From assembly GCF_000026045.1 (NCBI RefSeq), contig NC_007426.1, positions 1,426,001-1,490,000 of the forward strand: DNA of 64,000 nucleotides, written 5' to 3'. This document shows, piece after piece, positions 1 through 41,515 of this stretch (its first letter is position 1; the number at the start of each line of letters is the position of its first letter). A program made the position numbers and the translations under genes. The DNA is from Natronomonas pharaonis DSM 2160. Lineage in GTDB: Archaea > Halobacteriota > Halobacteria > Halobacteriales > Haloarculaceae. Under the pieces are notes generated by a model that worked only from the letters and a program-made list of their open reading frames with translations, ran no database searches and was not told where the DNA came from.

Positions 1-60
1 GACGATTACCGGGACCAAAAACGCAATCGCCACCAGCAGACCGGCCCGACTGACCCGCAT
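1..60 (-). CDS. 5' end of a membrane or exported protein, downstream of cbaA (partial)
   Basis: Only the first 20 codons are in the window. They read as a short basic start (MRVSRAG) followed by a hydrophobic stretch (LLVAIAFLVPVIV), which is a signal peptide or membrane anchor. The ATG shares one base with the cbaA stop codon (TGATG), so the gene is almost certainly co-translated with the oxidase genes. In ba3 clusters this position can hold a further small subunit or an accessory protein, but too little is visible to choose. Confidence 0.6.
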   Translation of the reverse strand, partial: MRVSRAGLLVAIAFLVPVIV

Positions 61-1805
61 CAGTGTGTCACCCCGACGACGGTGTCAGCGGCTGTCTGGG
101 CGATAACCTGCAATGTCTCGACGACCATCGGGTAGGTTCCGACACCCGGGCCGAAGACGCCGCCGCGGCTGATGATGGAAGCCAGCGGAAGCGCGTACGC
201 CAGGATGACGAGGATGACCGCGATGGCGGTCCACAGCTTCAGGTTGTCGAGAACTTTCGGCGAGTCCTCGGGACCGGAGAGCGTGTCGGCGTACTCGTTT
301 GCCGGTAGCGTCCCGGGTTCTGCCTTGTCGCCGAGAACAGTCATGACGACAACGAGGACGAACAGCAGCGTCGAAACGAACAGCAGGATACCGCCGAGGA
401 TGACCTGCGCGTTGAGTTCGCCAAGTGAACCGGCTGCCATTTCGAACTCGAAGTTCCGGTATTGGGGTTCTGCGGTCCGTCGCGGCATGCCGGCCAGCCC
501 GGAGCGGTGCATCGCGTTCGACATGAACGTCATGCCGACAAACCAGAGGACGACCTGAGCGAGCGCGACCGATTTGCCCCAGAGCTTCTTGCCGGTCACC
601 TGTGGGAGGAACCAGTAGGAGACAGCCATGATGGTCAGCGCGACGGCAGTACCGACGGTCAGGTGGAAGTGACCGACGACCCACCACGTGTTGTGGACGA
701 GGTAGTTGATGTTCATCCCGGCGTTGACCATCCCGGAGAACGCGGCGGCGGCGAACATCAGCCCGGCAAGCGCCATGCCGGTAAAGACCGGGTCACGCCA
801 CGGGAGCGCTCGGAGCCAGCCGAAGTAGCCCGAGCCACCGCGCTGGCGGGCCCCATGCTCCATACTGGCGACGACGGTAAACGCCGTCAGTAAGCTCGGC
901 AACAGCAGGAACATGGTGTTGACCATCGCCATGAATTTGAACCCTTCCGCAATGCCGGGGTCGAGGTACTGGTGGTGAATACCAGTCGGCGTCGAAAGCA
1001 CCAAGAACAGCACGAAGACCACGCGAGCAAGCGGGTCACTGAACAGCTTGCCGCCGGAGATCTTCGGCAGCATGATGTACCACATCATGTAGGCCGGCAT
1101 CAGCCAGAAGTAGACGACTGCGTGGCCGAAATACCAGAACAGCGTTCGAGTCAGGAGCGCGTTCACTTGGTCGATGATGCCAACCGACCACGGCAACAGA
1201 AACAGGAGAACGGATGCGGCGACACCGAGGCTGGAGAGATACCAGAATATCATCGTCGTCAAAACCATAAAGGTCGGCAGCGGAATCCGCTCGCCGGGGT
1301 TGTCCTGCTTCCAGCTCCACCATGTCGTGAACCAATCAACGCCGGCAAGCCATGTGCCGACGATGAAAATCGCGAGCCCGAGGTAGAACAGCGGGTGTGC
1401 CTGCATCGGCGCGTAGAACGTAAACAGGACGCCGGCGCTCATCTCTACGGAATCGATGAGGCCACCGATCATCGGGAGGGCCGCCAACACGGTCCCAACG
1501 ACCATCAGGCCATACCACGCCTGCGTGAACCTGATATTTCCGAGGCTCCTATCGAGGCTGGTCGTGATGGCCCACGTGAAGATGCCCACAAGGAAGAAGA
1601 TGGTAAACGTTATTACAAGCAACACGCCGTGGAGCGTCAGCACGTCGTAATACTTAGCGGAGTCGATGAATCGGACGATGTCGGTTCGGTGGAGTACCTG
1701 TACAAGCCCTAGCGCTGCGCCAACAGCGAGGGCAGCAAACGAGCTGAAAAACGCTAGCCGAACGATGCGTGCTTCTTCGGGGAACTGCTCAATGTACGTG
1801 CTCAT
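60..1805 (-). CDS. cbaA: ba3-type cytochrome c oxidase subunit I
   Basis: Catalytic subunit of a ba3-type (B family) heme-copper oxidase that reduces O2 to water in the cytoplasmic membrane. The 581 residues are almost entirely transmembrane helices. Visible ligands are the low-spin heme His in LTLHGVLL, the CuB His with the nearby cross-link-type Tyr in FGHAVVYFW, the CuB His pair in GIHHQYLD, and the paired heme His in VVGHFHLT. The family's N-terminal His/Tyr arrangement and length fit ba3 rather than aa3 enzymes. The ATG overlaps the subunit II stop by four bases (ATGA), so the two are co-translated. N. pharaonis has a described cbaDBA cluster of the same order. Confidence 0.95.
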   Translation of the reverse strand: MSTYIEQFPEEARIVRLAFFSSFAALAVGAALGLVQVLHRTDIVRFIDSAKYYDVLTLHGVLLVITFTIFFLVGIFTWAITTSLDRSLGNIRFTQAWYGLMVVGTVLAALPMIGGLIDSVEMSAGVLFTFYAPMQAHPLFYLGLAIFIVGTWLAGVDWFTTWWSWKQDNPGERIPLPTFMVLTTMIFWYLSSLGVAASVLLFLLPWSVGIIDQVNALLTRTLFWYFGHAVVYFWLMPAYMMWYIMLPKISGGKLFSDPLARVVFVLFLVLSTPTGIHHQYLDPGIAEGFKFMAMVNTMFLLLPSLLTAFTVVASMEHGARQRGGSGYFGWLRALPWRDPVFTGMALAGLMFAAAAFSGMVNAGMNINYLVHNTWWVVGHFHLTVGTAVALTIMAVSYWFLPQVTGKKLWGKSVALAQVVLWFVGMTFMSNAMHRSGLAGMPRRTAEPQYRNFEFEMAAGSLGELNAQVILGGILLFVSTLLFVLVVVMTVLGDKAEPGTLPANEYADTLSGPEDSPKVLDNLKLWTAIAVILVILAYALPLASIISRGGVFGPGVGTYPMVVETLQVIAQTAADTVVGVTH

Positions 1806-2314
1806 TCGTCGTCCTCCAGTTCGAATTCGTCTTCAGGAACGACGGTCATCAGCGCCTCCATGTCGTGGTGGCCCGGGCCACAGTACTCGTTACAGAGGAT
1901 GCCGTATTCCGTTGGCTCGTCGACATCCGGCATCTCGACGGTCAGCGAGGCGACTTCGCCGGGGATGACCATCGTGTTCGCGTTTGTACCAACGACGCTG
2001 AAGCTGTGTATCACGTCTTCGCTCGTGACGTGGAACGTTACTTCGCTGTCAGCGGGCACCTCGAAATCGCCCGGGAAATACGCATACTGCACAGCGATGA
2101 TATGGACCTCGTATTCGTTTTCGCCGACTTGCTCGACGCCAGGGTCAGCAAAGCCCGGATGTTCGTCAAGGTTGTCGGGGTTGACGGTGTCTTGCTCGTC
2201 GTCGACCATCGCGATACCGATGCCCACCGAACCGTAGGTGATTGTCGCGATGAAGCCAACGATGAGAACCATCGCCGCGGCCAGCCAGAACTTCTCGTAG
2301 GTGTGGATGTTCAC
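1802..2314 (-). CDS. cbaB: ba3-type cytochrome c oxidase subunit II (CuA)
   Basis: CuA-bearing subunit that accepts electrons from an extracytoplasmic donor (halocyanin in haloarchaea) and passes them to subunit I. It has one N-terminal membrane helix (about residues 10-30) and a C-terminal cupredoxin domain. The CuA ligands are visible as the upstream His in DVIHSFSV and the C-x-E-x-x-C-x3-H-x2-M signature in CNEYCGPGHHDM. At 170 residues it is short, as is usual for ba3 enzymes. The start is GTG and overlaps the stop of the preceding small subunit (GTGA), which supports this start over internal ATGs. Confidence 0.95.
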   Translation of the reverse strand: MNIHTYEKFWLAAAMVLIVGFIATITYGSVGIGIAMVDDEQDTVNPDNLDEHPGFADPGVEQVGENEYEVHIIAVQYAYFPGDFEVPADSEVTFHVTSEDVIHSFSVVGTNANTMVIPGEVASLTVEMPDVDEPTEYGILCNEYCGPGHHDMEALMTVVPEDEFELEDDE

Positions 2315-2780: not shown

Positions 2781-2783
2781 GTG

Positions 2784-3617
2784 ATGCAGGCGGTGGCGCT
2801 GCCGCTCGCCTCGGTTCTCGCGCAGGCTCATGACCACTCGACGACGCTGCCGACCGAACACGTCGACCTGCTGGTGTTTCTGGTCATCGGCCTGCTCGCC
2901 GGGGCACACTGTCTCGGAATGTGTGGTCCGCTCGTGACCGCCTACGCCGACCGGTTCAATCCGCAGGCGGGAACGCGACGCGCGAACGCGCTAACGTTAT
3001 ACGAAGTCCGACAGCATGCCCTGTTCAATCTCGGGCGGGCAGGGAGCTACGCCCTCATCGGGGGACTGTTCGGTCTCATCGGAGCGCTCGCTTTCGCCTC
3101 GACGGACGCTGTCACCGCGGTCGGGGACTCAGTCAGAGGCGGTGTCGGGCTACTTGTCGGTATCGCCATCGTCGCCAGCGGCCTCTACTACCTCAGGGGC
3201 CAGTCCGGCGTGCCACACGGCGTTCCCGTTATCGGGACGTTCTTCGGATGGGTTTCGGGGCTGCTCACAAGCCGTATCGACCGGCTCGCGAACTCGCCGG
3301 GCATCCTCGGGCTCGGAGCGCTGCACGGACTGTTGCCGTGCCCGATTATCTATCCCGCCTATCTGTACGCGTTTGCGCTCGGTGACCCGGTCCGCGGTGC
3401 GCTCTCGCTTGCCGTACTCGGCCTCGGAACGATACCGACCCTCTTTGTCTACGGCACGGCGCTGGGCTCGCTCAGCACCTCAAGCAGGGTTCGCCTCCAC
3501 CGGCTGCTCGGCGTGGCGTTCATCGTCCTGGGGTACATACCGATTCAGCACGGGCTGATGCTCGCCTTCGGCATTCACCTTCCACACCCCCCGATACCGT
3601 TCTACCAGCCGCTCTAA
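2784..3617 (+). CDS. TauE/SafE-like (UreH-type) membrane protein, probable copper-related transporter
   Basis: A 277-residue polytopic membrane protein with about six helices and the signature GAHCLGMCGPL near residue 40, plus a second HGLLPCPIIYPA motif in the C-terminal half. This paired His-Cys pattern is typical of the UreH/SafE group of the TauE superfamily, often found beside CcoI/CopA copper ATPases and implicated in metal supply to cytochrome oxidases. A GTG three bases upstream is an alternative start. The gene abuts the small membrane protein before it and is six bases from the P-type ATPase after it. The link to the oxidase is inferred from context. Confidence 0.8.
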   Translation: MQAVALPLASVLAQAHDHSTTLPTEHVDLLVFLVIGLLAGAHCLGMCGPLVTAYADRFNPQAGTRRANALTLYEVRQHALFNLGRAGSYALIGGLFGLIGALAFASTDAVTAVGDSVRGGVGLLVGIAIVASGLYYLRGQSGVPHGVPVIGTFFGWVSGLLTSRIDRLANSPGILGLGALHGLLPCPIIYPAYLYAFALGDPVRGALSLAVLGLGTIPTLFVYGTALGSLSTSSRVRLHRLLGVAFIVLGYIPIQHGLMLAFGIHLPHPPIPFYQPL

Positions 3618-3623
3618 CAGACT

Positions 3624-6080
3624 ATGTCAGACCCCGACTTCGACTTCGACTCCGACCCCGCCCTCGACACCGACGACACCTGTCGGCTCTGTGACCTCCC
3701 GCTCCCCGCGTCGCCAGTTGCTGGTGCCGACACCGAAGGGGAGTTCTGCTGTCGGGGCTGTCTGGAGGTCCAGCGGTCACTCGGCGACCTCGACCAGGAG
3801 GCCGCGGCAGCGGTCCGGAACCGAGTCGGCGGGGACGCCCCCGACGAGAGCGACGACCGTGGCGAGGCCGCCTTTTTCGCCGTCGACGGAATGCACTGTA
3901 CCACCTGTGAAGCATTCCTCGAAGGGCGGGCCGAGGCCCTCGACGGCGTCTACAGCGTCGAGGCAAGCTATGCGACCGACACTGTCCGGGTTAACTACGA
4001 CCCGGAAGCGGTCGACGAGTCAGCGCTTCCCGAACAGCTCTCCGGCTACGGCTACGAGGCCGGCGAGCGGGCGGACGGACGGCACGGCGACGAGACCAAC
4101 GCGGTCGCGAAGTTCCTCGCCGGTGGCGGCTTCTTCGGGATGATGGTGATGATGTGGTATGTCCTCTTTTTGTATCCGACATACTTCGGCTACGACCCGG
4201 TTGTCGACCTCGATGGATACGTCGGCCTGTACGTCTTCGCCAATATCTGGCTAATGACGTCGTTTGTCCTGTTCTACACCGGCTGGCCGATTATCCGCGG
4301 CGCGTACGTCAGCCTCAGAGCCGGCGCGCCGAACATGGACCTGCTGGTGACGCTTGCGGCCTGCAGTGCCTACGCCTACAGCACGCTCGCGATGCTCGTC
4401 GGGCGTACGGACCTGTACTTCGACGTCTCCGTCGCCGTCATCCTCGTGGTGACGGCTGGGGGCTACTACGAGAGCCGCATCAAGCAGCGGGCAGTCGGGC
4501 TGCTGTCGGAGTTGACCGAACAGCAGGTCGACAAAGCCCGCCGTGAGAACGGCGAGACCGTCCCTGTCTCGGAGGTGGCGGCCGGCGACCGGCTGCTCGT
4601 CCGACCGGGCGAGCGGGTCCCGCTCGACGCTGAAGTCGTCGAGGGGTCAGCCGCCGTCGACGAGTCGCTCATCACCGGCGAGTCCCACCCCGTGACGAAA
4701 CGGCCGGGCGACGGCGTTGCAGGGGGTACCGTCGTCACCGACGCCCCGCTCGTTGTTGCGGTCGACGAGGGGGCCGAGAGTACGCTGGACCGACTTGTTG
4801 AGCTGCTGTGGTCGATACAGAGCCGCTCCCCGGGCGTCCAGCGGCTCGCCGACCGACTGGCGACGATTTTCGTCCCGCTCGTCATCGTGGTCGCGACGGT
4901 CATCACTGCGTGGATGCTCGTCGCTGGCAACCCTGTCACGGCCGCCCTCTTGGTCGGATTGACCGTTCTTATCGTTTCCTGTCCGTGCGCGCTCGGGTTG
5001 GCGACGCCGCTGGCTATCGCCTCCGGTGTCGGCGCTGCCACCGAGCGTGGTATCGTGGTCGCCACCGAGACCGTCTTTGAGGAAGCGGCAGACATCGAAA
5101 CGGTCGTCCTCGACAAGACCGGCACGCTCACGCAGGGGTCGATGGCGGTTACGGACGTCCACGCGGACGACGCCGAACCCGTCGTCGAGCGGGCTGCGGC
5201 CGTCGAAGCACTCTCCGAGCACCCCATCGCCGAAGCTATCGTCGAATACGATGCAGCCGGAGATATGGCGGCCGATGGTGGTGTTGTCGAAGAATCACCG
5301 ACCGACTCCGGTAGCGACCGGTCCGCCGACGCAGCCATCGCTGACGCCGACGGCTTCGAACGGCACTCCCGCGGTGTCGTCGCGCCCGTGGACGACGAGA
5401 CGGTCGTCGTCGGCCACCCCGATTTGCTACGGCACAACGGCCTGTCGGTCGAGGAACGGTATTCCGACCACATCGAGGCGACCAGAGCCAACGGTGACGT
5501 ACCGGTGGCAGTCGGCTGGGGCGGCCGCTGCCGCGGCGTCATCGTCGTCGGGGACACACCACGCCCAGAGTGGCGTGAAGCCGTCGAGTCGCTGTCACGC
5601 AACCGGTCGGTTGTCGTCCTTACCGGCGATGAGGGGGCTGCCGCAGACCGATTCCGTTCTGTTGACGGCGTTGACGAGGTGTTCGCCGGGGTGCCCCCCG
5701 AGGCGAAAGCCGAAACCGTTCGCCGGCTTCGCGGCGACGGCTCCGTGGCAATGGTCGGCGACGGCAGCAACGACGCGCCGGCGCTCGCAGCGGCCGACCT
5801 CGGTATCGCGCTCGCCAGCGGCACGAAGCTAGCGACTGACGCCGCCGACGCCGTCATTGTCCGTGATGACCTCCACGCCATCGAGGAGACGTTCCACATC
5901 GCCGAGCGGACGAACAGCCGCATCCGACAGAACCTCGGCTGGGCGTTCGTCTACAACGGGCTGGCGATTCCGATGGCTGTTACCGGCGTTCTCAACCCGC
6001 TACTTGCGGCCGCCGCCATGGCGCTTTCGAGCACGCTTGTGGTGTCGAACTCGGTTCGGTCGCTCGTCGACTACGAGTAG
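3624..6080 (+). CDS. Heavy-metal (copper) translocating P1B-type ATPase
   Basis: An 818-residue ATP-driven metal pump. In order: an N-terminal cysteine-rich metal-binding region (CRLCDLP, then EFCCRGC), an HMA domain with GMHCTTC near residue 93, membrane helices, the actuator domain (DESLITGESHPVTK), the P1B CPC motif (IVSCPCALGLATP), phosphorylation site DKTGTLT, the SEHP motif and the GDGSNDAPAL hinge. The doubled Cys-rich N-terminus resembles CcoI-type copper ATPases involved in cytochrome oxidase assembly. Adjacent SafE-like and ba3 genes support copper as substrate and oxidase maturation as role, although copper detoxification is also possible. Confidence 0.92.
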   Translation: MSDPDFDFDSDPALDTDDTCRLCDLPLPASPVAGADTEGEFCCRGCLEVQRSLGDLDQEAAAAVRNRVGGDAPDESDDRGEAAFFAVDGMHCTTCEAFLEGRAEALDGVYSVEASYATDTVRVNYDPEAVDESALPEQLSGYGYEAGERADGRHGDETNAVAKFLAGGGFFGMMVMMWYVLFLYPTYFGYDPVVDLDGYVGLYVFANIWLMTSFVLFYTGWPIIRGAYVSLRAGAPNMDLLVTLAACSAYAYSTLAMLVGRTDLYFDVSVAVILVVTAGGYYESRIKQRAVGLLSELTEQQVDKARRENGETVPVSEVAAGDRLLVRPGERVPLDAEVVEGSAAVDESLITGESHPVTKRPGDGVAGGTVVTDAPLVVAVDEGAESTLDRLVELLWSIQSRSPGVQRLADRLATIFVPLVIVVATVITAWMLVAGNPVTAALLVGLTVLIVSCPCALGLATPLAIASGVGAATERGIVVATETVFEEAADIETVVLDKTGTLTQGSMAVTDVHADDAEPVVERAAAVEALSEHPIAEAIVEYDAAGDMAADGGVVEESPTDSGSDRSADAAIADADGFERHSRGVVAPVDDETVVVGHPDLLRHNGLSVEERYSDHIEATRANGDVPVAVGWGGRCRGVIVVGDTPRPEWREAVESLSRNRSVVVLTGDEGAAADRFRSVDGVDEVFAGVPPEAKAETVRRLRGDGSVAMVGDGSNDAPALAAADLGIALASGTKLATDAADAVIVRDDLHAIEETFHIAERTNSRIRQNLGWAFVYNGLAIPMAVTGVLNPLLAAAAMALSSTLVVSNSVRSLVDYE

Positions 6081-29590: not shown

Positions 29591-29613
29591 TACGCCGGCT
29601 CGCCGGGACAAAT

Positions 29614-30969
29614 ATGCAACAGGTAGATGTCGCCATCGTGGGCGGCGGCCCCGCCGGCTCGGCTGCCGGCCACGCGGCCGCCACGAACGGTGCCGACGCC
29701 GTCGTCATCGAGAAGGGCGTCCCCCGCGCCGACCGTGACGGCCTCGGCCCCGACTCAACGGACGCGGCCGGAATCCTCGATTACTGGGTCGACATCATGG
29801 ACCTCGGTGAGCCGGTCCCAGACCACGTCAAACACCGAGAGCTAAACGCCGCAGAGTTCATCGGCCCCGAGGACCGGCTTGAGCTGACTGACACGAGCAT
29901 CGACGCAAGCTATCCGAACTTCGGATTCACGATGCACCGCGCCCGCTTCGATGACTGGCTCCGCGAGCGTGCCGAAGCGGCCGGCGCGACCTACCGGGTC
30001 GGCGAGGCTGTCGGCGATATCGAGTCCGACCTCTCCGGTCGGCCAACCCATACCGTTACCCTCCGTGACGGCACCGAATTCGTCGCCGACTATCTCATCC
30101 TTGCTGACGGGCCACAGCGGACGGTCACCGACGGCGTCATTGGGTCGTGGCTTCCGGACTCGAAGACGGAAGGACTCGAAACACGCCGGGCGAACCACAT
30201 TGCCTACCAGGAGTATCGGGAGTTCCCGGCCGAACTCTTCGAGGACGACCGCATCAAGTTCTGGTGGGGGCATATGCCGGGCCACACCGCCTACCCATGG
30301 GTGTTCCCCAACGACGGAACGGTCGCCCGAGTCGGGCTGACGATGCCCATCGGTCTCGACATTGACGACATCGACAACCGAAGTGCGTATCCGCTACTCC
30401 AACCGGACGACGAGCGGCTGCCGCAGGGCGGGACGTATATCGAGCGACTGTTGGAGACCGTTTACCCGGAGTATGAGCTCGCTGACTTCCCGATACTCGA
30501 AGACCGCGGGAAGTCGAACGGTACGGAGACGTATCCCATTTCTTCGACACGGCCCATCGAGTCACCAACCGACGCCAACGTGGCCATCGTCGGCGGCGCA
30601 ATGGGTGCGACCTCGGCCTTCCACGAGGGCGGCGACCACGTCGCCGTCCGGACCGGGAAGCTCGCCGGGGAACTGGCGGCGACTGAAGCTCTCGGCAGCT
30701 ACAACGCCGCCTGGCACGACGCCATCGGCTCGGAGGTTCGCCGGAACTGCGTCTTCGCCGACATGGTCCGGGGGTACGAGCCGGACGACTGGGACCACCT
30801 CTTTTCGCTCGTTGACGGCCTCACCTCGGAGGACGGCTTCACGCCGCACGAGGCGATCTATGCGGGGTGGTCCGGAACGAAGCTGTTTGCGGAGTACAAA
30901 TACCGGGCGTTCACGTTCCGGAACGGCGGGTATGCACAGGTCCGAGAAAGCGACTACAGCATCCGATAA
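29614..30969 (+). CDS. FAD-dependent geranylgeranyl reductase-like oxidoreductase
   Basis: A 451-residue flavoprotein with a Rossmann start (VAIVGGGPAGSAAGHAAA) and the second dinucleotide motif region GADAVVIEKG. The overall plan (a phenol-hydroxylase-like fold, the middle PWVFPND stretch, and VAIVGGAMGATSAFHEGG for the FAD ribityl region) fits the geranylgeranyl reductase family, which saturates isoprenoid double bonds in archaeal lipids and quinones. Other members oxidise other substrates, so lipid reduction is an inference. Overlaps the convergent cohesin-like gene by 16 bases. Confidence 0.82.
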   Translation: MQQVDVAIVGGGPAGSAAGHAAATNGADAVVIEKGVPRADRDGLGPDSTDAAGILDYWVDIMDLGEPVPDHVKHRELNAAEFIGPEDRLELTDTSIDASYPNFGFTMHRARFDDWLRERAEAAGATYRVGEAVGDIESDLSGRPTHTVTLRDGTEFVADYLILADGPQRTVTDGVIGSWLPDSKTEGLETRRANHIAYQEYREFPAELFEDDRIKFWWGHMPGHTAYPWVFPNDGTVARVGLTMPIGLDIDDIDNRSAYPLLQPDDERLPQGGTYIERLLETVYPEYELADFPILEDRGKSNGTETYPISSTRPIESPTDANVAIVGGAMGATSAFHEGGDHVAVRTGKLAGELAATEALGSYNAAWHDAIGSEVRRNCVFADMVRGYEPDDWDHLFSLVDGLTSEDGFTPHEAIYAGWSGTKLFAEYKYRAFTFRNGGYAQVRESDYSIR

Positions 30970-31643
30970 CGCCGCCGGCCGAACAGCACCACCGAGAACA
31001 ATGCGGCGATGGCCACGACAACGCCGAAGCCGGCCTGGTCTTCGGGAGCCGGGTCGTCGGCGTCGTCGGCATCGTTCGTAACCGCTGGCCCGTCTTCTGC
31101 TTCATCGTTCGTTGTCCCGCCGTCATCGCTGATTTCGATACTCGCGTCGGTCTCGATGACCGGCAGCGGGTATTCGAGCATCTGGGCGCTAGCGTCGGTG
31201 TATGCGACCGTCGTGTTCGTTGCCGGCGCATCCGCAGCGACGGCGAACGTTATCGTTGCCGTCGTTCCTTCACCGATAACACCGCCTGCAGGCGGCTGTC
31301 TGGCCTGGCTGACCGTAACAGCACCTGCTTCTTCATCGATGTCGGTCTCGAAAGCCACCGTGGTCTCGTTGCCGCCGGACAGCCACGGTCCCTCCTCGAT
31401 GTCGTCGACAGACAGCAGTTCGGGGTCGTACTCGACCGTGTACTCGAAGGACTCGACTGCCTCGTTGTCATAAACGCTTATGACTCGTATCTCGGCGTCG
31501 ATATCGACCGTCTCGCCGGCAGTAGCTTCGGTCTCGTCCGGTTCGAAGTAGACCAGTCCGGGGCTGTCAGCCGCCGCTGCACCGCCGGCAAGCGCCGCAA
31601 CGGCGACGGCCAGGCAGCCGACGACAGCGACGAGACGCCGCAT
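30954..31643 (-). CDS. Exported cohesin-domain-like protein with C-terminal membrane anchor
   Basis: A 229-residue protein with a signal peptide (VAVVGCLAVAVAALAGG), a beta-sandwich domain resembling cohesin-like modules (residues about 30-150: FEPDETEATAGETVDIDAE, YTVEYDPELLSVDDIEEG), an acidic linker and a C-terminal hydrophobic helix with an RRR tail. The tail (AGFGVVVAIAALFSVVLFG, RRR) resembles the PGF-CTERM sorting signal but lacks a clean PGF. The ATG overlaps the stop of the P19-like gene by one base, so it is in the same operon. Perhaps a surface-associated binding protein. Confidence 0.72.
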   Translation of the reverse strand: MRRLVAVVGCLAVAVAALAGGAAAADSPGLVYFEPDETEATAGETVDIDAEIRVISVYDNEAVESFEYTVEYDPELLSVDDIEEGPWLSGGNETTVAFETDIDEEAGAVTVSQARQPPAGGVIGEGTTATITFAVAADAPATNTTVAYTDASAQMLEYPLPVIETDASIEISDDGGTTNDEAEDGPAVTNDADDADDPAPEDQAGFGVVVAIAALFSVVLFGRRRYRML

Positions 31644-32863
31644 CAGTCCTCACCCACCGTCATCGACGGCATATCGAGGAACGCGGTCTCGTAGCCGGCG
31701 TGCCGGGAGACCTGCGGCGGCGACTCGACCACCAGCTCGAAGGGGCTGTCGGGGCGGTCGATTGCCGCGCCGTAGTGCAGGCCGAGTTCGCTGTCGAGAG
31801 TCTGTTCGAGGGTCGTTTCAACCGGCCCCTCGGTTGAGAGCGCCATATCAGCCAGCGGGACCCTGTTGTACGGCGTTCGCGGCGAGACGAGCAGGTACCC
31901 ATCGTCGGCGAACCGCGACGCTTCGAGATGCCGGACGACGAACCGGGCGTCGCCGCTCTCGTGGACACCGAGGTCGACGCCGGGGTATTCGTCGGCCTCG
32001 GGAAGTGCGGAAAACGGCATCTGGTGGCCATCGTGGCTGTTGTGGCCGTTGTGGTCGTTATGGTCGCTGTGGCCGTTGTGGCTGCCGTGGTCGTTGTGGT
32101 CGTTGTGACTGTCGTGGTCGCTATGGTCGTCGTGACCATGTTCCATCGGCGGTGCGAGCGCACCTCGCTGCCCCCACTCGTCTTGGTCGAGGTATTCGAC
32201 ACCGCCGATGACCTGTTCGCGGAAGTCGTCGTCGTACTCGAACTCGAAGCTCATCGTCGCCGGCTCTTCGAACCGGCCGTCGAAGTCGCCGGTTCGTCGG
32301 GCCTGAATCGGGTTGATGTCGACCTCGACCGTGTAGGTGTCGTCGGCCGGCAGCGGCACGTTGTCACCGAAGTGAAAGCCCATCGTCTGGGAAATCATCG
32401 GCCACGGCGCGCGCTGGTCGACGATGTTGCCGTCGCGCAGCACCCGCATCTCGGCACCGGCGTCGGTCGGCAGCACGCGGCCGGTTTCAGCGTCCCACAG
32501 CGTCACCATCAGATGAACACCGCGGGCCTGCTCCGGGATGACTTCCTCACTCTCCTCACCGGTGATAAGCCAAAACGAGTGGGGATAGGTCACCATCGGG
32601 GAAAGACGGTAGTCGCCGGCCTCAACGGCCGGCAGGTGCCGCATCGCCTCCCGGTGGGTCGGTTTGTAAACGGCGTTCGGCGGGTCGTCGACCTGCGGAA
32701 TGTTCGGAACGGCATCCGGCTGGTCTTCGGGTTCGCCGTCGTCCGGTTCTTCGGGGCTGTCCTCTTCGGGGTCGTCGGGCTGCTCGGCCGTACAGCCGGC
32801 GAACGCGCCGAGTGCGGCCAGTGCACTTGAGCCAAGCAGTCGTCGTCTCGTGTATCGTGTCAT
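31643..32863 (-). CDS. Tat lipoprotein resembling P19-type iron/copper-binding protein, with a His-rich insert
   Basis: A 406-residue exported protein with a Tat signal (TRYTRRRLLGSSALAALGA) and lipobox (FAGC). The central region (about residues 60-200) resembles the P19 family of periplasmic Fe/Cu-binding proteins (HREAMRHLPAVEAGDYRL, ITGEESEEVIPEQARGVHL, and a later TMGFHFGDNVPLPADDTY). A run of about 38 residues (MEHGHDDHSDHDSHNDHN and similar) alternates His with Asp, Asn, Gly and Ser and is a clear metal-binding candidate. The ATG at 32863 follows a TTG in-frame. It is in one operon with the DyP-like gene upstream and the cohesin-like gene downstream. Confidence 0.75.
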   Translation of the reverse strand: MTRYTRRRLLGSSALAALGAFAGCTAEQPDDPEEDSPEEPDDGEPEDQPDAVPNIPQVDDPPNAVYKPTHREAMRHLPAVEAGDYRLSPMVTYPHSFWLITGEESEEVIPEQARGVHLMVTLWDAETGRVLPTDAGAEMRVLRDGNIVDQRAPWPMISQTMGFHFGDNVPLPADDTYTVEVDINPIQARRTGDFDGRFEEPATMSFEFEYDDDFREQVIGGVEYLDQDEWGQRGALAPPMEHGHDDHSDHDSHNDHNDHGSHNGHSDHNDHNGHNSHDGHQMPFSALPEADEYPGVDLGVHESGDARFVVRHLEASRFADDGYLLVSPRTPYNRVPLADMALSTEGPVETTLEQTLDSELGLHYGAAIDRPDSPFELVVESPPQVSRHAGYETAFLDMPSMTVGED

Positions 32864-32897
32864 CGTACTACTATATTGGGTCAAAAGCTGTCGTGGG

Positions 32898-34181
32898 CTA
32901 CAGGCTGGGAAGCGAGCGGTCCTCGCGCGGCGGCACGATGAAGTTCCCGCGCCGCCGGACGAAGATGTACTGGAGGATGCCGTTGTTGAGTCGCTGGCCG
33001 ACGCCGTCGCCAGCCAGATCGGCTCCGGTCATCGCGTCGCGGACCTCGACGAACTCGTCGACCGTCCGCTGAAGTGAAACGAAGTGAACCCCCGGCTGGT
33101 CGCCGTCGACGGTGTTGAAATCACGGCGCAGCAGCGGTGGCGTTCCGTCTTCGTCGCGGGCGCGGGCGGCCTTCTGTGCGTGTCCAACCATTCCCTGATT
33201 TCGGGCATGGGACTCGGTTGCCTCGGCGATGTCACCGGCGACGCCGGTTTCGGTGCCGAGTCGCTCGCCGATTTCTCCCACCGACTCGTTGTGGGCGTGT
33301 TCGGGGCTGAACATCTTGGCGACGCGCTGGAAATGGCTGTCCTGCTCGAACCACGTCCGCAGTTGGAGACCGAGCGACGAGATGTGCATCGTCGTTCCGC
33401 CCGCAAACGGACCGTCCTGTATTGTGACTCGGTCTTCCGGAGCCTGACTCTCCGTGAAGCCGGACCGAAAGCCCATAAAGAAGGGCGCATCCTCGGGTAT
33501 GGAGTCCGGAACCCCGTCGAGGTCGGTGTGCTGGGTCGGCAGCCCCGGTCCGAGGAAACCGGTGCGCCGCGGCTCCGCAGGCTCGAAAACACCTGACAGC
33601 GTCGCTTCCATCGGCGTGCCGTTCGGCGCGTCGACATCGCCTACGAGCGCCTCTTCGGCCTCAAGGACAACGTGCGGGTGGTTGCTCGCCAGATGGATGA
33701 CAGCGTCGAAGGTGTCGAACTCCGGCGTCTCCATCGAGGTCAACGCCGTCGGTTCCGGAATCGGCGGGTCGCTGTCGACCCGCTCGTCGAAGTAAGCGTG
33801 TGAGTAGCCGACGGCGAAGAGCAGGCCCTCCGGGCTGTACTCGTAGGCACGTTCCAGCGACTGGAACGCGGTTTCGACCTGCGTTCTGGCGTCGTCGTCG
33901 ATGTCGGTCGCAAGCGAGAGCGGCAAGAGGACGTGGTGTTCCGGCGCGACGAGATTACCGTCATCGTCGGTCGGGAGCGTTTCGTCCCACGCGTGCTGTC
34001 GGGAAGACCGTGCCTCCGGGTCACCGGACGGCACTGTCGGCTCCTCGTCGCCTCCGTTGCCTCCGGTATCTCCGTCATCGAACGCCTCGAGACACGCGGC
34101 GAGTCCCGCAGCACCGCCAGCCGCGACCATCGCGCGTACGTACTCGCGGCGAGAGAGACCGTCTCGCTCCCGGAATTTCAT
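32898..34181 (-). CDS. Tat-exported DyP-type peroxidase-like protein lacking the canonical Asp
   Basis: A 427-residue protein with a Tat signal (RERDGLSRREYVRAMVAAG) and a lipobox-like end (GLAAC). The body matches the dye-decolorizing peroxidase (EfeB-like) fold: GGTTMHISSLGLQLRTWFEQD, the probable heme-proximal His in GMVGHAQKAARA and the C-terminal PPLLRRDFNTVDG...VHFVSLQRTVDEF. The family motif GxxDG here reads GFRSG, so the distal Asp is Ser. Peroxidase activity is thus doubtful, and heme handling is an alternative. Start ATG 34181; a TTG one codon earlier exists. Divergent from the beta-propeller gene. Confidence 0.75.
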   Translation of the reverse strand: MKFRERDGLSRREYVRAMVAAGGAAGLAACLEAFDDGDTGGNGGDEEPTVPSGDPEARSSRQHAWDETLPTDDDGNLVAPEHHVLLPLSLATDIDDDARTQVETAFQSLERAYEYSPEGLLFAVGYSHAYFDERVDSDPPIPEPTALTSMETPEFDTFDAVIHLASNHPHVVLEAEEALVGDVDAPNGTPMEATLSGVFEPAEPRRTGFLGPGLPTQHTDLDGVPDSIPEDAPFFMGFRSGFTESQAPEDRVTIQDGPFAGGTTMHISSLGLQLRTWFEQDSHFQRVAKMFSPEHAHNESVGEIGERLGTETGVAGDIAEATESHARNQGMVGHAQKAARARDEDGTPPLLRRDFNTVDGDQPGVHFVSLQRTVDEFVEVRDAMTGADLAGDGVGQRLNNGILQYIFVRRRGNFIVPPREDRSLPSL

Positions 34182-34462
34182 CAACTGTCAGTAGCCGATG
34201 GCCCTGCAAATAGCTGTCCCCTCGATTATCGGCTACCGTAACCGGTGACAGCCCGCAATTTGCCATACCACCATACAGTGGCCCTATAAGCCCCTATGAA
34301 GCCAAAACTGTACGAAAGTTTACGTCATAGCTACCAGCATTATTTTCTGGTATTTGCGACAGTCGTCAAGATTACAGAATTGCGGCGTTTTGCGGCCTTT
34401 CAGTACTGATTTCGAGCCGCACCGTCAACTTTTTCCCCGTGTGGAAGAGAGGCAGTTACAGG

Positions 34463-35782
34463 ATGAAGCGAACAACTCGACGCCGGTTCATCGCATCTGG
34501 AGCGGCAGTAGGTGCGATTACCATTGCCGGCTGTGCTGATGAAGACCCCGAGCCGGAACCTGAAGAGACGCCCGAAGACGACGAAACGCCGACTGAGACC
34601 GAAGAGGAAGAAGCGGACGTCTTCGAGGCAGGCTACGAGATCTGGGCTGCCGACCAGGGGACGGACACGGTTTACATCTACGAGCCGGCGGACGACTCCG
34701 GTGAGGAGTACGACCTCCTCGACGAAATCGACACTGGTGCGGAAGGCGGCCACGTGCCGCACATGGCCGACTACTCGTCGGATTACGAGTACGTCGCCAT
34801 CCCGTGTACCACGGGTGCGCGGACCCTCATCTACCGAGCCGAGGACCGAGAACTCGTTGCCAACCTAGAAACCGGTGCCGGGTCGCACTTCGCCGGGTTC
34901 GGCCCGAACGACGAGTACATCCACGTCGATGTCATCGGCGAGAGTGAAATCGTTCGCGTCGATGTCGACCTCGAGAACGAAGAGTTCGAGATCGTCGACG
35001 AAATCGAAGTTCTCGAAGACGAAACGGTCCAAGAAGCCGGTATCGAATCCGGGTCGCCGATTTGTCACTCCTACGATAAGAGCGGCCGCTCGATTCACAC
35101 GATGGGGCCGGCCTACGATGACGGCTCGCTCGTCATCGTCGACCACGAGGAGTTCGAAGTCGACACCGCATTCCCCCACGAAGAGCTCCCGACCAACTGT
35201 GGAACGATGCCCCACGTCACCGAGGATACGTTCTATCTCACGGCCGGTAACCCGACACCGACCGACGATGACGGCAACGTCATCGAAGAGCAGGAAGACG
35301 AGGCTGTCGGCGAGTACTACGTCCTCGACACCGAAAACGACGAAGTCATCCACAACGAGTCGACCCGCGGCGTCGACGCACACGGCTTCTGGTTCACTCC
35401 GGACGGCGAAGAGCTGTGGGTGCTGAACCGCGAAACAAACGACGGTGTTGTCGTCGACCCCGACACCCACGAAGTCGTCGACGAAATCGACGCCTTCGGG
35501 CCGGCAACGGCACCTGACCCCGACGAGCGCGACGCCCCGGACATCTTCTGGGGCTCGCCCGACGGCGAGTATATGTTCGTGACTCTCCGCGGCCCCGAGC
35601 CGCAGTCGGGTGACCCCCACGCTGCAACCGGCGTCAACCCCGGGTTCGCCGTTATCGACACCGACACCCACGATATCGTCACGACCGTCCAGCCGGACCC
35701 CGACAACGACGAGAGTGACCTCCACGGCATCGGTGTCCGACCGACCCGAGAGTACGACGGCTTCAACCTCCCGCCGTTCTAG
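34463..35782 (+). CDS. Tat-exported beta-propeller (YVTN-like) lipoprotein
   Basis: A 439-residue protein with a Tat signal (RTTRRRFIASGAAVGA) and lipobox (IAGC), an acidic Glu/Pro-rich linker, and then repeated blades of about 40-60 residues containing elements such as YEIWAADQGTDTVYIY, GSHFAGFGPNDEYIH, GFWFTPDGEELWV and SPDGEYMFVT. The repeating (S/T)PDGE-x-hydrophobic pattern is typical of YncE-like beta-propellers. Such proteins can bind proteins or ligands extracellularly. It is divergent from the DyP-like operon and may be part of the same system. Confidence 0.78.
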   Translation: MKRTTRRRFIASGAAVGAITIAGCADEDPEPEPEETPEDDETPTETEEEEADVFEAGYEIWAADQGTDTVYIYEPADDSGEEYDLLDEIDTGAEGGHVPHMADYSSDYEYVAIPCTTGARTLIYRAEDRELVANLETGAGSHFAGFGPNDEYIHVDVIGESEIVRVDVDLENEEFEIVDEIEVLEDETVQEAGIESGSPICHSYDKSGRSIHTMGPAYDDGSLVIVDHEEFEVDTAFPHEELPTNCGTMPHVTEDTFYLTAGNPTPTDDDGNVIEEQEDEAVGEYYVLDTENDEVIHNESTRGVDAHGFWFTPDGEELWVLNRETNDGVVVDPDTHEVVDEIDAFGPATAPDPDERDAPDIFWGSPDGEYMFVTLRGPEPQSGDPHAATGVNPGFAVIDTDTHDIVTTVQPDPDNDESDLHGIGVRPTREYDGFNLPPF

Positions 35783-36461: not shown

Positions 36462-37733
36462 TTAGTCTGACACACCCACGACACCATCGGCTTGATGACC
36501 TGTAGCGGTGTCGTGGGTCACGGTCGGCTGGTTCACACAGCCCGATGCCTGCCGTCGCACCTTCCGAACTTGTGGAAGGCTGTTGAGAGCAGGCACATTT
36601 CGATTCAGTTTTTCCAACCCTTTCTTGGCGATGTTGATAGCCGCGTTCCGGTCGGCGTGGTCTTGCCGCCCACACTCCACGCACTTGAATCGCTTCTTGT
36701 TTCGGTTTGCACGAGTCGTATGCTCACACTCGGTGAGCGAACACGCCTGACTCGTGTACTCGGGGTTAATCTCCTCGCTCGGAATGCCTTGGAACGCGGC
36801 TTTGTACGTGATGAACTCTCGAAGTTTACGGAATGGGAGACTGTGAAGGCGGCGGTTCATCCGGGTGCCATAATCAATCGAGTCCCGCATCTCTTTGAGG
36901 TCTTCAAAGACGATGACGGGGTTCTCGAACCGTGGCACCCATTCCACGACTTGTCGAGAGACTTTGTGGAGTTGGTCGTGAACGAATCGTTCTTCTTGTT
37001 GCTCGAACGCTCGGTCGAACGACGACTTCCCGCTGTTCTGCATCCGTTTCCGCATCGTGAAGTACCGATGACGTTCTTCCTTGATTTCCGGGTAGTCGAT
37101 GACAACTGAGTTAACAATGTCGTCTTCGTGGAGTGAAGCGAGTGCAACGCAGTCCTCGTTGATGTCCACTCCAACAACTGTGCGTGAGTCCTGTTTGTCT
37201 CGGACTTCAGCCTCGGTGTGAGTGATGTTGATGTGGAGTTCGTAGTTCCCGTTCCGTTTCATCGCTTCCGCCGTCCCGACTCGCCACGTCTCGGACTCGA
37301 TGGCCGTTCGGAGTTGTTTGAGCACGTCTAGCGACCCCTGAAGCGTACCCTTCACTGGGTTGTACGGCTTCGCACTGATTCGGTAGCGGATTGAGTCGTC
37401 TTCGAGGAACAGGTTGTAGCCTTCCTCGTAGTTTGACCGAAGTGGGTACGCGCCGTCTTTCGTGTGACTGGGTTGGTTGTAGTCGTCGTACTCGTAGTAG
37501 TTCTCCATCGCTTCCAGCGATTTCTGCACGACGAGTTGCGCGGTATTGTTTACGAGATCGGCGTCGGATTCCAAGTCCTGCCGAATCTCGTCCCAGTCGT
37601 CACCGTTCTTTGTCCGGCGGATGGTTTCGTTGTACACGCGCCGGGCTTCGAGGAAGGCGTCGTCCAGAAGTTGCTGACCAGACTCATCGGGGTCGAGTTG
37701 GAAGACGAGTGTTTTGGTCAGCGACTTCTGCAT
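36462..37733 (-). CDS. tnpB: TnpB, RNA-guided nuclease of the IS605/IS1341 group
   Basis: A 423-residue TnpB with intact RuvC-like catalytic residues: Asp in VVGVDINEDCVALA, Glu in VIVFEDLKEM and the final Asp in DHADRNAAINIAKKG. The zinc-ribbon Cys pairs are CSLTEC and FKCVECG. The N-terminal KTLVFQLDPDESGQQLLDD is typical. The ATG at 37733 is chosen; the frame upstream to 37817 runs into the left-end hairpin. Since all catalytic residues are retained, the protein may still cut DNA guided by the element's omega RNA. No tnpA is present. Confidence 0.9.
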   Translation of the reverse strand: MQKSLTKTLVFQLDPDESGQQLLDDAFLEARRVYNETIRRTKNGDDWDEIRQDLESDADLVNNTAQLVVQKSLEAMENYYEYDDYNQPSHTKDGAYPLRSNYEEGYNLFLEDDSIRYRISAKPYNPVKGTLQGSLDVLKQLRTAIESETWRVGTAEAMKRNGNYELHINITHTEAEVRDKQDSRTVVGVDINEDCVALASLHEDDIVNSVVIDYPEIKEERHRYFTMRKRMQNSGKSSFDRAFEQQEERFVHDQLHKVSRQVVEWVPRFENPVIVFEDLKEMRDSIDYGTRMNRRLHSLPFRKLREFITYKAAFQGIPSEEINPEYTSQACSLTECEHTTRANRNKKRFKCVECGRQDHADRNAAINIAKKGLEKLNRNVPALNSLPQVRKVRRQASGCVNQPTVTHDTATGHQADGVVGVSD

Positions 37734-37848
37734 ACAATAATCGTCGTACTGCGGTCTTGTAAAGGTATTGTCTGTGGTTGATAGGTTGACCCAGTGTCGG
37801 GCTTCACCCCCGCGCACGGTGGCGCGGGGTACTCACCCTTGTTCTTCT

Positions 37849-38250: not shown

Positions 38251-38288
38251 AGCTAAGTGCGTTGCCGCAGAGCGTTGTATCGTTGTCG

Positions 38289-39194
38289 ATGCAACGACGC
38301 GAGTTCCTCGCCGGGGGGGCCGGCCTCACCACAGCATTCACCGCTGGCTGTGCCGACAGCGACCGCGCTAACGTCGGTATTGCCGACGAGACGCTGACAC
38401 TGGCGACGACGACCAGCACCTACGACACCGGGCTGCTCGATGCGGTAACCCTCGCTTTCGAGGACCGGTATGGCGTTTCCGTCAGGACACTTGACCAAGG
38501 GACGGGAGAGGCACTCGCGACAGGGCGGCGAGGCGATGCCGATGTCGTGATGGTCCACGCCCGGTCGCTCGAAGACGAGTTCATCGCTGACGGCCACGGT
38601 ATCAACCGCCGCGACCTGATGTTCAACGATTTCGTCGTCGTTGGTCCGGACGACGACCCGGCCGGGATTGCCGACTTAGAGGATGTGACAGCGGCGTTTG
38701 CGACCATCGCTGAGACGGCTTCGGCGTTTGTCTCCCGCGGAGACAACTCCGGGACCCACGCCAAGGAACTGGCTATCTGGGAGGCCGCCGAGGCCGACCC
38801 TGCCGGAGAGTGGTACCGTGAGGCGGGCGCGGGGATGGGCGTGGTGCTGAATCAGGCAAACCAGACGCCCGCGTACGCGCTGGCTGACCGTGGGACGTAC
38901 ATCGCTCAGCGATCACAGCTGGAGCTCTCCATTCAGGTCGAGGGGCCGATAGAAGGCGGCCCGGAGCTGTTGGCGAATCCGTACGGTGTTATTGCTGTCA
39001 ATCCGGCCGTCCACGACGCTGTCAACTACGACCTCGCGATGGCCTACATCGGCTTCCTGACCTCACCCGAGGGGCAGGCGGTAATCGAAGAGTACACTGT
39101 TGCCGGCGAACAGCTGTTTTTCCCGCGAGCGGTCGCTGAGGAACCGAATTTCCAGCAGTACGTCCCCGAGGGCTGGCAGCCCACGGAGGAGTAG
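38289..39194 (+). CDS. tupA: Tungstate/molybdate ABC transporter solute-binding lipoprotein (TupA/WtpA-like)
   Basis: A 301-residue exported binding protein with a Tat-type lipoprotein signal ([20 protein letters not shown]). The TupA hallmark [14 protein letters not shown] near residue 40 and the domain blocks [25 protein letters not shown] and PYGVIAVNP identify the tungstate/molybdate-type family. The start is the ATG at 38289, not the longer frame from 38262. It is the first gene of a tupABC-regulator run with only a four-base gap to tupB. Tungstate is most likely, molybdate is possible. Confidence 0.9.
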
Positions 39195-39198
39195 TTGC

Positions 39199-39924
39199 AT
39201 GTCGCTTGGGGGGCTCTCGCTGCTTGCGGTCGCCGACGCGTTGCCTGTCGTCGGCGACCTTCCGTTCGAGCGCCACTACATTACCAGCATCATCTACGTC
39301 TCGCTGTATGTGAGCCTCACCGCTGTGGTACTCAGCACGCTCATCAGCATCCCGATAGCGCTCGGTGTCGGCTTCGCTGACTTCCCGGGGAAGGGGGTCG
39401 TGGTCGCCGTTATCAACACCGGGATGGGCTTTCCGAGCGTGGTTGTCGGTCTGCTGGTCCTGTTTGCCGTCTCGAATCAGGGGCCGCTTGGAGGTCTGGG
39501 ACTCGTCTACACGAAGGAGGCGATGATTCTTTCACAGATAGTTCTGGCAACACCGGTCATTACGGGCGTCAGCCTCGCCGCGGTCACGAGCGTCGGCGAC
39601 GGGGTCCGGGATGCCGCCTACGCGATGGGTGCGACGAAGATGGATATCGCCCTCGTCACGGTCAAAGAGGCCCGGTACGGAATCGCGACCGGCGTTCTCG
39701 CGGGGCTTGGACGGGCCATCAGCGAGGTCGGCTCGGTGCTCATCGTCGGCGGCAACATCGCAGGGGCTGATGGGACAGCCATCACCCGAACGCTGACGAC
39801 GGCGATTCAGCTTGAAGCCCGGCAAGGGCGATTCGAAGCCGCATTGGTCCTCGGCGGCATCCTCGTCGCGCTCGTGTTGGTTATCAACGGACTCGTTCTC
39901 AGACTCGGGGGCGGTCGGATATGA
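39199..39924 (+). CDS. tupB: Tungstate/molybdate ABC transporter permease
   Basis: A 241-residue membrane permease with about five or six helices. The EAA-like loop motif [36 protein letters not shown] is clear. The start ATG at 39199 avoids overlap with tupA. The final codons overlap the tupC ATG by four bases (ATGA), showing translational coupling. The permease belongs to the TupB subgroup; pathway assignment is by operon context. Confidence 0.9.
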
Positions 39925-40775
39925 CGCTGCTATCGACGCTGCGAGGGATTTCCAGCCCGGCACGCCAACAGCCCGGAACGCAAAGCGAATCGAGACGTGG
40001 CGGCGACACGCTCGCCGAACGCGGATTGGCCGTCGCCGGTGTCTCTCACGGCTTCGACGGGACGGCAGTTCTGGAATCGGTGACGCTGGCTGTCGACCGG
40101 GGTGAGACAGTCGCGATAATCGGCCCATCCGGAACCGGAAAGACGACGCTGCTGCGGCTGCTGGCGCTATTTTCCGAGCCAGACGATGGGACCATCGGTC
40201 TCGACGGGACCGATGTGTGGCGGCAATCCGAACGCCAGCGGCTCGCTGCGCGTCGCCGCATCGGGATGGTCTTTCAGAAAGCGAACCTCTTCGATACGAC
40301 CGTTCGGCGGAACGTCCGCTACGGGCTCTCGGTGCGCCGTAGCTGGCGGGAGCGACTCCGGTCGTGGCTCGGAGGCCGGAAGCGACAGGAATCTGTTTTC
40401 GAGGCGCTGGACATCGTTGGGCTAGCCGACGCGGCCAGCCAGTCCGCGTCGTCGCTTTCAGGCGGGGAGGCCCAGCGAGTCGCTTTCGCCCGTGCACTCG
40501 CTTACGACCCGGACTTCCTGTTGCTCGACGAACCGACCTCCGATCTGGACCCGCGGAACACGGCGGTCATCGAGGAGGCGGTCGACGCTGCGCGCTCGCG
40601 AGGACTGGGTGTCGCCGTCGCAACGCACGACATGCATCAGGCTCGACGTATCGCAGACCGGATAGTCGTCCTCCTCGATGGGCAGGTCATCGAGGCCGGA
40701 CCAACCGAGCGGGTGTTCTCTGACCCCGACGACGCCCGCGCCCGGAAGTTCATCAACGGAGAGTTGGTGTACTGA
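39921..40775 (+). CDS. tupC: Tungstate/molybdate ABC transporter ATP-binding protein
   Basis: A 284-residue ABC ATPase. Walker A is [14 protein letters not shown], the signature is [16 protein letters not shown], Walker B is [14 protein letters not shown] and the switch His is in ATHDMH. It powers import with TupB. The N-terminal 25 residues are unusually Ser/Gln-rich before the ATPase core. A ModE-like regulator gene starts two bases after its stop, and all four genes appear to be one transcript. Confidence 0.93.
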
Positions 40776-40777
40776 CG

Positions 40778-41515
40778 ATGACGGGCGAACACTCAACTGC
40801 CCCCCGCGGCTACCCGCCGTTGATGAATCGGACGAACGGACAGGGGGAGGCTGCCCTCGTCGCAGAGGGTGTCGAGTTCGACGCGGACGATGCCACCCTA
40901 CTCCGGGAAATCAATGAGACGGGGTCCGTAGCGCGCGCCTCGTCGAACCTCGGCCGGTCGCGAGCACGCCAGCTCTCCCGAATCGAGACACTGGAGTCAG
41001 CGTTCGGCGACCTCGTTGAGCGACGGCGTGGAGGCAGCGGCGGTGGAGGCAGCCGGCTGACCGAGAACGCGGGGGCGCTGTTGCGCCGCTACGACCGGCT
41101 GCAGACCGCCCTTACGGCCACAGATACGGTTCCGGAGACGGTGCTCAATGGGACGGTCACGGCGGTTCTTGGCGAACTTGCTGATGTTGAGACAGAGATC
41201 GGAACGGTCCGCGGGCTCCACCCCGATGTGACAGCCGGCGATGACGTACAGGTACGAATCGGTGCTGATGCTGTTACCCTTCAGGACCCCGCAGACAGCC
41301 CCGGACCGGACGCGACGAGCGCACGGAACCGTTATCAAGGGACCGTAACCGCCGTTGAACACGGTGAGACCGTCCTTGAGGTGACGGTGGCCGTCTCGGA
41401 CGTTCCGTTCCGGGCGCTTGTGACCGACGAAAGCGCCGACCGACTCGGGTTGGATGCTGGGTGTCCCGTCGTCCTGACATGGAAGGCGACGGCGACGCGG
41501 CTCGCGCTCCGATAG
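40778..41515 (+). CDS. ModE-like transcriptional regulator (winged helix plus TOBE domain)
   Basis: A 245-residue protein with an N-terminal ModE-type helix-turn-helix (ATLLREINETGSVARASSNLGRSRARQLSRI, residues about 35-75), a GGSGGGGS linker region and C-terminal TOBE-type segments (LNGTVTAVLGELADVETEIG, NRYQGTVTAVEHGETVLEVTV) that bind molybdate or tungstate in ModE. It likely represses or tunes the tup operon in which it lies. The start of the gene follows tupC by two bases. A second ATG at 40823 is an alternative. Confidence 0.87.
   Translation: MTGEHSTAPRGYPPLMNRTNGQGEAALVAEGVEFDADDATLLREINETGSVARASSNLGRSRARQLSRIETLESAFGDLVERRRGGSGGGGSRLTENAGALLRRYDRLQTALTATDTVPETVLNGTVTAVLGELADVETEIGTVRGLHPDVTAGDDVQVRIGADAVTLQDPADSPGPDATSARNRYQGTVTAVEHGETVLEVTVAVSDVPFRALVTDESADRLGLDAGCPVVLTWKATATRLALR

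Follow-up and report, generated by a model that had tools for sequence, protein, structure and literature searches.

Which metal, if any, is handled by a small group of exported proteins that look like parts of bacterial iron uptake systems is the question raised by one locus of Natronomonas pharaonis DSM 2160, a haloarchaeon with a 2.75 Mb genome (98.7% complete). The locus lies in a window of 64,000 nucleotides (contig NC_007426.1, positions 1,426,001 to 1,490,000), which is the whole stretch of DNA analyzed here. A first-pass annotation of the window, made from the letters alone, had proposed that a DyP-like protein, a P19-like lipoprotein, a cohesin-like anchored protein, and a divergent beta-propeller lipoprotein form a novel metal or heme handling system. 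On balance, we favor the view that they are a haloarchaea-specific extracytoplasmic module for handling copper. This view draws on gene order, conservation, residue patterns, the absence of the permease FTR1, and the copper genes found beside relatives elsewhere, with protein folds taken from prediction. Of the earlier proposal, the recurring group of exported proteins with metal- and heme-binding folds survives, and uptake of ferrous iron or heme of the EfeUOB or P19 type does not.

A core pair with two accessories

The four open reading frames for exported proteins stand at the positions and on the strands first assigned to them. Three are read from the minus strand in the order DUF7405 (32898–34181), DUF7350 (31643–32863), and the cohesin-domain protein (30954–31643), and the propeller gene (34463–35782) is divergent on the plus strand. 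The operon spacing was also read correctly, with a gap of 34 bases between DUF7405 and DUF7350, taking the ATG at 32863 as the DUF7350 start, and a one-base overlap (TGATG) between the stop codon of DUF7350 and the start codon of the cohesin gene. Export by the twin-arginine translocation (Tat) route had been assigned to the propeller. That assignment holds and has to be widened, because DUF7405 and DUF7350 likewise carry N-terminal Tat-type RR motifs and lipoboxes that can be read off the sequence, making three of the four proteins predicted Tat lipoproteins.

The neighborhood survey covered 80 named haloarchaeal loci (given L numbers here) and a further 20 regions around propeller orthologues. 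DUF7405 and DUF7350 are neighbors in 75 of the 80 loci, and contig ends truncate two of the five loci that do not fit. The cohesin gene follows in 26 loci, and the propeller gene is divergent from the set in four (L043, L044, L048, and L071). Among the 20 propeller regions, seven hold DUF7350 and/or DUF7405 (L179, L182, L184, L187, L192, L195, and L196; binomial probability about 2e-9, uncorrected for the relatedness of the genomes), and the full set recurs in L195 and L196. The association of propeller orthologues with the set extends over several families. These neighborhoods are not random, and the co-occurrence across haloarchaea that the earlier proposal depended on is found. What had been called a compact set of four is recurrent, but it is really a near-universal core pair, DUF7405–DUF7350, with two accessories, a cohesin gene present in roughly one locus of three and a propeller gene that frequently sits at another place in the genome. 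Of 295 genomes sampled from the phylum, only those of haloarchaea have DUF7405; the other groups gave no matches.

A recurring gene was also missing from the original list. A geranylgeranyl-reductase-family flavin adenine dinucleotide (FAD) oxidoreductase (29608–30969, plus strand, convergent with the operon; TIGR02032 1.6e-26, below cut-off) has counterparts adjoining set members in L073, L179, L192, L193, and L196, and it is possibly a fifth member. HisD, which sits beside the set in L179, L192, L195, and L196, was considered as a partner and set aside as resembling ordinary biosynthesis synteny.

The FAD oxidoreductase has a weak MenJ match, and in some 20 loci of Natrialbaceae, L056 among them, the DUF7405–DUF7350–cohesin trio lies on the same strand within a menaquinone operon, between menB and menA, where MenB, MenA, and MenD exceed their NCBIfam cut-offs. 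Divergent MenB and DUF7405 genes also occur in Halegenticoccus (L089). These placements would suit a respiratory role, in which an exported peroxidase or electron-transfer unit is linked to menaquinol and the metal binder carries a redox cofactor. However, the men link is limited to one family and one further genus, menB of N. pharaonis lies some 105 kb outside the window, and the core pair has no membrane redox subunit as a constant companion; we regard a respiratory module as decidedly unlikely.

DUF7405 and DUF7350 at residue level

The DUF7405 protein (PF24152, 1.4e-150) was rightly called DyP-like. The DyP models of Pfam and NCBIfam do not match it, but its family profile matches EfeB-type deferrochelatases (2.4e-4) and its AlphaFold model, with a predicted local distance difference test (pLDDT) score of 64, matches solved DyPs (Foldseek E 1.8e-11, probability 1.00). 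Among solved proteins EfeB is the nearest in sequence, and hhalign against E. coli EfeB gives 1.5e-6. In that alignment GFRSG of DUF7405 falls on GFKDG, His334 on the EfeB histidine, and LRRDF on LRRGY. His334 (codon at 33180–33182, minus strand) is the predicted heme ligand, and Arg352–Arg353 (33123–33128, minus strand) align with the distal arginine of LRRGY; all three residues are invariant in 98 of 98 family members. At the place of the catalytic aspartate of GXXDG the protein has Ser240 (33462–33464, minus strand), and across the same 98 members this position is Ser in 89, Asn in 6, Gly in 2, Ala in 1, and Asp in none. Retention of the EfeB heme-ligand histidine and distal arginine without the catalytic aspartate is a new observation for the family.

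Given these residues, DUF7405 is predicted to bind heme. The GXXDG aspartate is conserved in most DyPs, but some B-type DyPs depend on the arginine and not on the aspartate (PMC8197335). Loss of peroxidase activity in DUF7405 is therefore likely but not certain. As a natural DyP family that has lost the aspartate throughout and kept the heme ligand and arginine, DUF7405 offers a clean test of nonperoxidase roles for the DyP fold.

The DUF7350 protein (PF24041, 3.4e-44) also matches the P19 model Iron_transport (PF10634, 7e-5, 23.5 bits, cut-off 21). Its profile matches FtrA (8.7e-6), and its AlphaFold model (pLDDT 83.6) matches copper-bound FetP and FtrA/P19 (Foldseek, 3.5e-5), all of which bears out the description as P19-like. 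The two halves of the protein are homologous to each other (hhalign 2.2e-7 versus 0.037 at best in 20 column shuffles), so that DUF7350 is a fusion of two P19 units; P19 proteins of the canonical kind form dimers. The part of the N-terminal half that matches Iron_transport spans residues 155–211 (32231–32401), the His/Asp-rich linker with its 14 histidines lies at 32021–32146, and the C-terminal half, which is the DUF7350 domain proper, covers residues 291–403 (31655–31993), all on the minus strand.

As no canonical P19 was found within the phylum to serve as an alignment partner, one from Azospirillum, where canonical P19 occurs with FTR1, was used. In the N-terminal half the HxM motif, Met156, and His164 align with canonical P19. 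His117, Met156, and His164 of the P19 site are kept, the ligand Glu is replaced by Met119, and the last His is replaced by Phe198; His117, Met119, Met156, and His164 are present in 89 of 89 DUF7350 sequences. The C-terminal half has its own motifs, HYG and RHxGYETAF, which are invariant or nearly so. The P19-type His/Glu/Met/His/His metal site is incomplete within a single domain of DUF7350. The linker comes in two kinds, long and His/Asp-rich, as in the window, or short and Met-rich (PMEMEMMP and similar, PMxMxM(M)P), and the Met-rich motif replaces the His/Asp-rich linker in about half of the family. The His-rich kind goes with the cohesin gene, being present in 22 of 26 loci with cohesin versus 2 of 39 without (p 2.8e-11, uncorrected for ancestry). 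The second new feature is a P19 fold doubled within one chain, in which the ligand Glu has become Met in every sequence and the linker is rich in Met or His. Neither DUF7350 nor DUF7405 is named in any paper searched, and both are still listed under unknown function in Pfam.

A second DUF7350 gene (about 61–69% identical) is present in the N. pharaonis genome at about 795–799 kb (L004, 6471–10315). Its neighbors encode a small HWH/SHWH-rich lipoprotein outside any Pfam family, a protein resembling nucleases, and a further propeller lipoprotein. The same His-motif lipoprotein family follows DUF7350 in Halovenus (cluster 29).

Which metal

Two bacterial systems offer themselves for comparison. 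Like EfeUOB, YwbLMN, and FepABC, the set combines a Tat-exported DyP-fold protein, predicted to bind heme, with a putative metal-binding lipoprotein, and the proximal His and distal Arg align with EfeB. Unlike them, it has Ser in place of the GXXDG Asp and a P19 duplication instead of an EfeO-type protein; M75, the EfeO domain, has no Pfam match in the four proteins, and the genome as a whole was not searched for it. With FetMP, FtrABCD, and P19 the set shares the P19 fold and the first His, the Met, and the HYG/HFG His of the metal site. It differs in being duplicated within one chain, in the change of the Glu ligand to Met, in loss of the last His of the first half, in the long, presumably metal-binding linker, and in having no FTR1, cupredoxin, or ferredoxin partner.

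The permease of both is missing. FTR1 (PF03239, EfeU in the first group) had been noted as missing from the locus; it is absent from the N. pharaonis genome in a genome search, and across the order FTR1 passes the cut-off in none of 146 haloarchaeal genomes, with four control genomes positive. This absence means that the set does not belong to the iron importers of the EfeUOB or FetMP kind. Defining features of the two systems were looked for and not found, so the arrangement falls outside both, in agreement with the earlier remark that no named system has this combination.

Iron or heme could be acquired in another way. DUF7405 might free iron from heme like a deferrochelatase or oxidize Fe(II), with DUF7350 carrying the iron to some permease and the cohesin and propeller proteins acting as surface receptors. 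EfeB as the closest solved relative of DUF7405 fits this idea, as do the work of P19 proteins with FTR1 in iron uptake, seen in the pairing of canonical P19 with FTR1 in Azospirillum, and the ferritin-like genes that adjoin DUF7405 in L088 (11583–12308) and L100 (11307–11822) (Ferritin_2; DUF892). It is opposed by the missing FTR1, the lack of any conserved permease adjoining the core pair, the loss of the DyP Asp and the P19 Glu, and the identity of the recurrent DUF7350 neighbors, which are copper genes and not iron genes. We consider iron or heme acquisition unlikely.

Such neighbors were counted on plasmids. SCO–TlpA–CcdA genes stand beside plasmid DUF7350 in three cases, two in Haloterrigena and one in Halomontanus (L241, L244, and L249), and a heavy-metal P-type ATPase does so in five (three Haloferax, Haloarcula marismortui, and Halobaculum). 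A Halobacterium noricense plasmid has NosD, ATP-binding cassette (ABC) genes, and plastocyanin near DUF7350, and a Haladaptatus plasmid has plastocyanin. In total, copper-type neighbors occur at 10 of 14 plasmid DUF7350 loci versus 2 of 16 control stretches drawn from four of the DUF7350-bearing plasmids (p 0.0015). In Natronococcus jeotgali (L075), a NosL–NosD fusion, NosF, NosY, and SCO1 surround DUF7350 and DUF7405. Upstream of DUF7405, Haladaptatus among others has a membrane protein gene (cluster 25, with no assigned Pfam family) whose product is a homologue of the membrane protein encoded between the DUF7350 and P-type ATPase genes of Haloferax. The TauE/SafE gene directly upstream of DUF7405 in Halovenus belongs to the family that adjoins a copper P-type ATPase in the N. 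pharaonis window. There, at the left end, TauE/SafE (DsbD_2; 2781–3617, plus strand) is followed by a copper-type P-type ATPase (3624–6080, plus strand; TIGR01511, 442 bits, cut-off 397), and next to them are COX1 (60–1805, minus strand) and an adjacent short gene read as COX2-like (1802–2314, minus strand). The neighbors of DUF7350 elsewhere, i.e., SCO, NosDFY, copper-type P-type ATPases, plastocyanin, and TauE/SafE, point to extracytoplasmic copper trafficking.

Several observations weigh against copper. The set itself has no copper gene, the nearest in the window being about 25 kb off (2781–6080), and many chromosomal loci have no copper neighbor. The plasmid contexts are phylogenetically nonindependent, and collapsing them by lineage gives p = 0.017. 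P19 proteins also bind iron in bacterial iron use, NCBI labels DUF7350 an iron transporter, and the ferritin-like genes of L088 and L100 are the chief hint toward iron. The P-type ATPase of L101 scores equally for the Zn/Cd kind and for copper. Copper alone does not explain the position of the Natrialbaceae trio in the menaquinone operon, and the DUF7405 structure model reaches a pLDDT of only 64.

L101 to L105, from five named species of Haloarcula, Halorussus, and Halosegnis, are identical in length, match, and gene map, as would be seen with a shared plasmid or with assembly contamination.

From the evidence for copper we infer a flow of metal through the module, with a redox step. DUF7350 would be a membrane-tethered, internally duplicated P19 protein that binds copper through soft His/Met sites, with its Met-rich or His-rich linker acting as a copper buffer. 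DUF7405 would be a tethered DyP-fold heme protein that most likely alters the redox state of copper, or else removes peroxide made by copper, to enable hand-over. The clients may be exported copper enzymes, such as, in other genomes, CuA oxidases and nitrous oxide reductase; here, the His-ring propeller is a possible client. The cohesin protein might serve as a surface anchor or docking partner. The arrangement would function like an EfeB-type set with copper as its metal.

The closest parallel with a working model is bacterial. The Streptomyces DyP DtpA is Tat exported and is needed together with Sco and ECuC to mature the copper oxidase GlxA; it possibly oxidizes Sco-bound Cu(I), and its loss is reported to reduce cytochrome oxidase activity (PMC4736821). 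Both systems would pair a Tat-exported DyP-fold protein with lipoproteins for copper, GlxA being the copper enzyme served in Streptomyces, and SCO lies beside DUF7350 in several haloarchaea (L075, L241, L244, and L249). The context and residues suggest that DUF7350 may stand in for the copper lipoproteins and DUF7405 for DtpA. The differences are that DUF7405 has lost the DyP Asp, the carrier is a P19 duplication, and no Sco is found beside the set in the window. The propeller of the window is of the YVTN type, and a likeness to GlxA is hypothetical.

The core pair would be a strong candidate for delivering copper to exported haloarchaeal enzymes (CuA oxidases, halocyanins, and nitrite and nitrous oxide reductases). 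Caution is due with the label "iron transporter" that automatic annotation gives to DUF7350. Haloferax volcanii is genetically tractable and carries both families, so the idea is directly testable.

The cohesin protein, the propeller, and the flanking DNA

The cohesin-like anchored protein is as first described, with a Pfam Cohesin match (PF00963, 1.4e-11, 45.1 bits, cut-off 24.1), a PGF-CTERM sorting domain (TIGR04126, 34.1 bits, cut-off 24.5), and a signal of the general secretory (Sec) type. A cellulosome-like role is unlikely because the N. pharaonis genome has no dockerin (PF00404) partner in a genome search.

The propeller has seven blades of the YVTN type, and a search with its family profile places PDB 1l0q (1.9e-10) as the closest solved relative. 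Six His and one Asp (H100, H142, H202, H251, H307, H421, and D360) occupy equivalent blade positions by sequence, one per blade at a spacing of 42 to 61 residues and at the same place ahead of the inner strand, predicting a ring on the inner lip. Among 27 orthologues, all of these residues except H251 are invariant wherever the position is covered, and H251 is kept in 23. The ring may hold a metal in the central opening. NosZ has seven His in a ring at the center of its propeller, compared with the six His and one Asp here.

Such a ring raises the prospect of zinc. AztD, a zinc chaperone, is a propeller with zinc-binding His ligands in its central pore (PMC6689063), and an AztD-like propeller could be accompanied by DUF7350 as a zinc store, for which the long His/Asp linkers and the second propeller lipoprotein and His-rich lipoprotein near the DUF7350 paralogue in L004 would be fitting. 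However, the propeller has no sequence match to AztD, no zinc ABC transporter adjoins the core pair among the loci inspected, and Met-rich linkers and Met ligands are atypical for zinc; a zinc system is highly improbable. As a candidate AztD, the propeller was rejected for want of a PDB match.

The window propeller would share with AztD and NosZ a central opening lined with His, but sequence homology to them is undetectable past generic YVTN repeats, and it has no CuA domain. Against the L-NosZ family model the scores are 16–33 bits, far under the cut-off of 700, and the weak match reaches 1.9e-8 in L043. Homology to NosZ was rejected after hhalign with 30 haloarchaeal NosZ sequences aligned only the Tat signal peptides. 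Returning to copper, it is conceivable, as a long shot, that the propeller is an exported metalloenzyme of a new kind, its six-His, one-Asp lip ring holding a polynuclear copper center that arose independently of NosZ and is loaded by a dedicated DUF7405–DUF7350 heme–copper relay that also serves other exported copper enzymes.

Upstream of DUF7405, at 34191–34236, lies a perfect 9-base inverted repeat, GTAGCCGAT / ATCGGCTAC, with 28 bases between its arms. A shared operator in the divergent promoter region was considered and dropped, as the GTAGCCGAT repeat is not present in six related loci. The propeller gene is adjoined on its other side by a TnpB-like protein gene (36465–37736; Cas12f1-like TNB domain), with no TnpA noticed alongside. 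Farther on, the region 38262–41515 encodes a substrate-binding protein (PBP_like_2) that resembles a tungstate-type ABC import protein, with more ABC-like open reading frames nearby.

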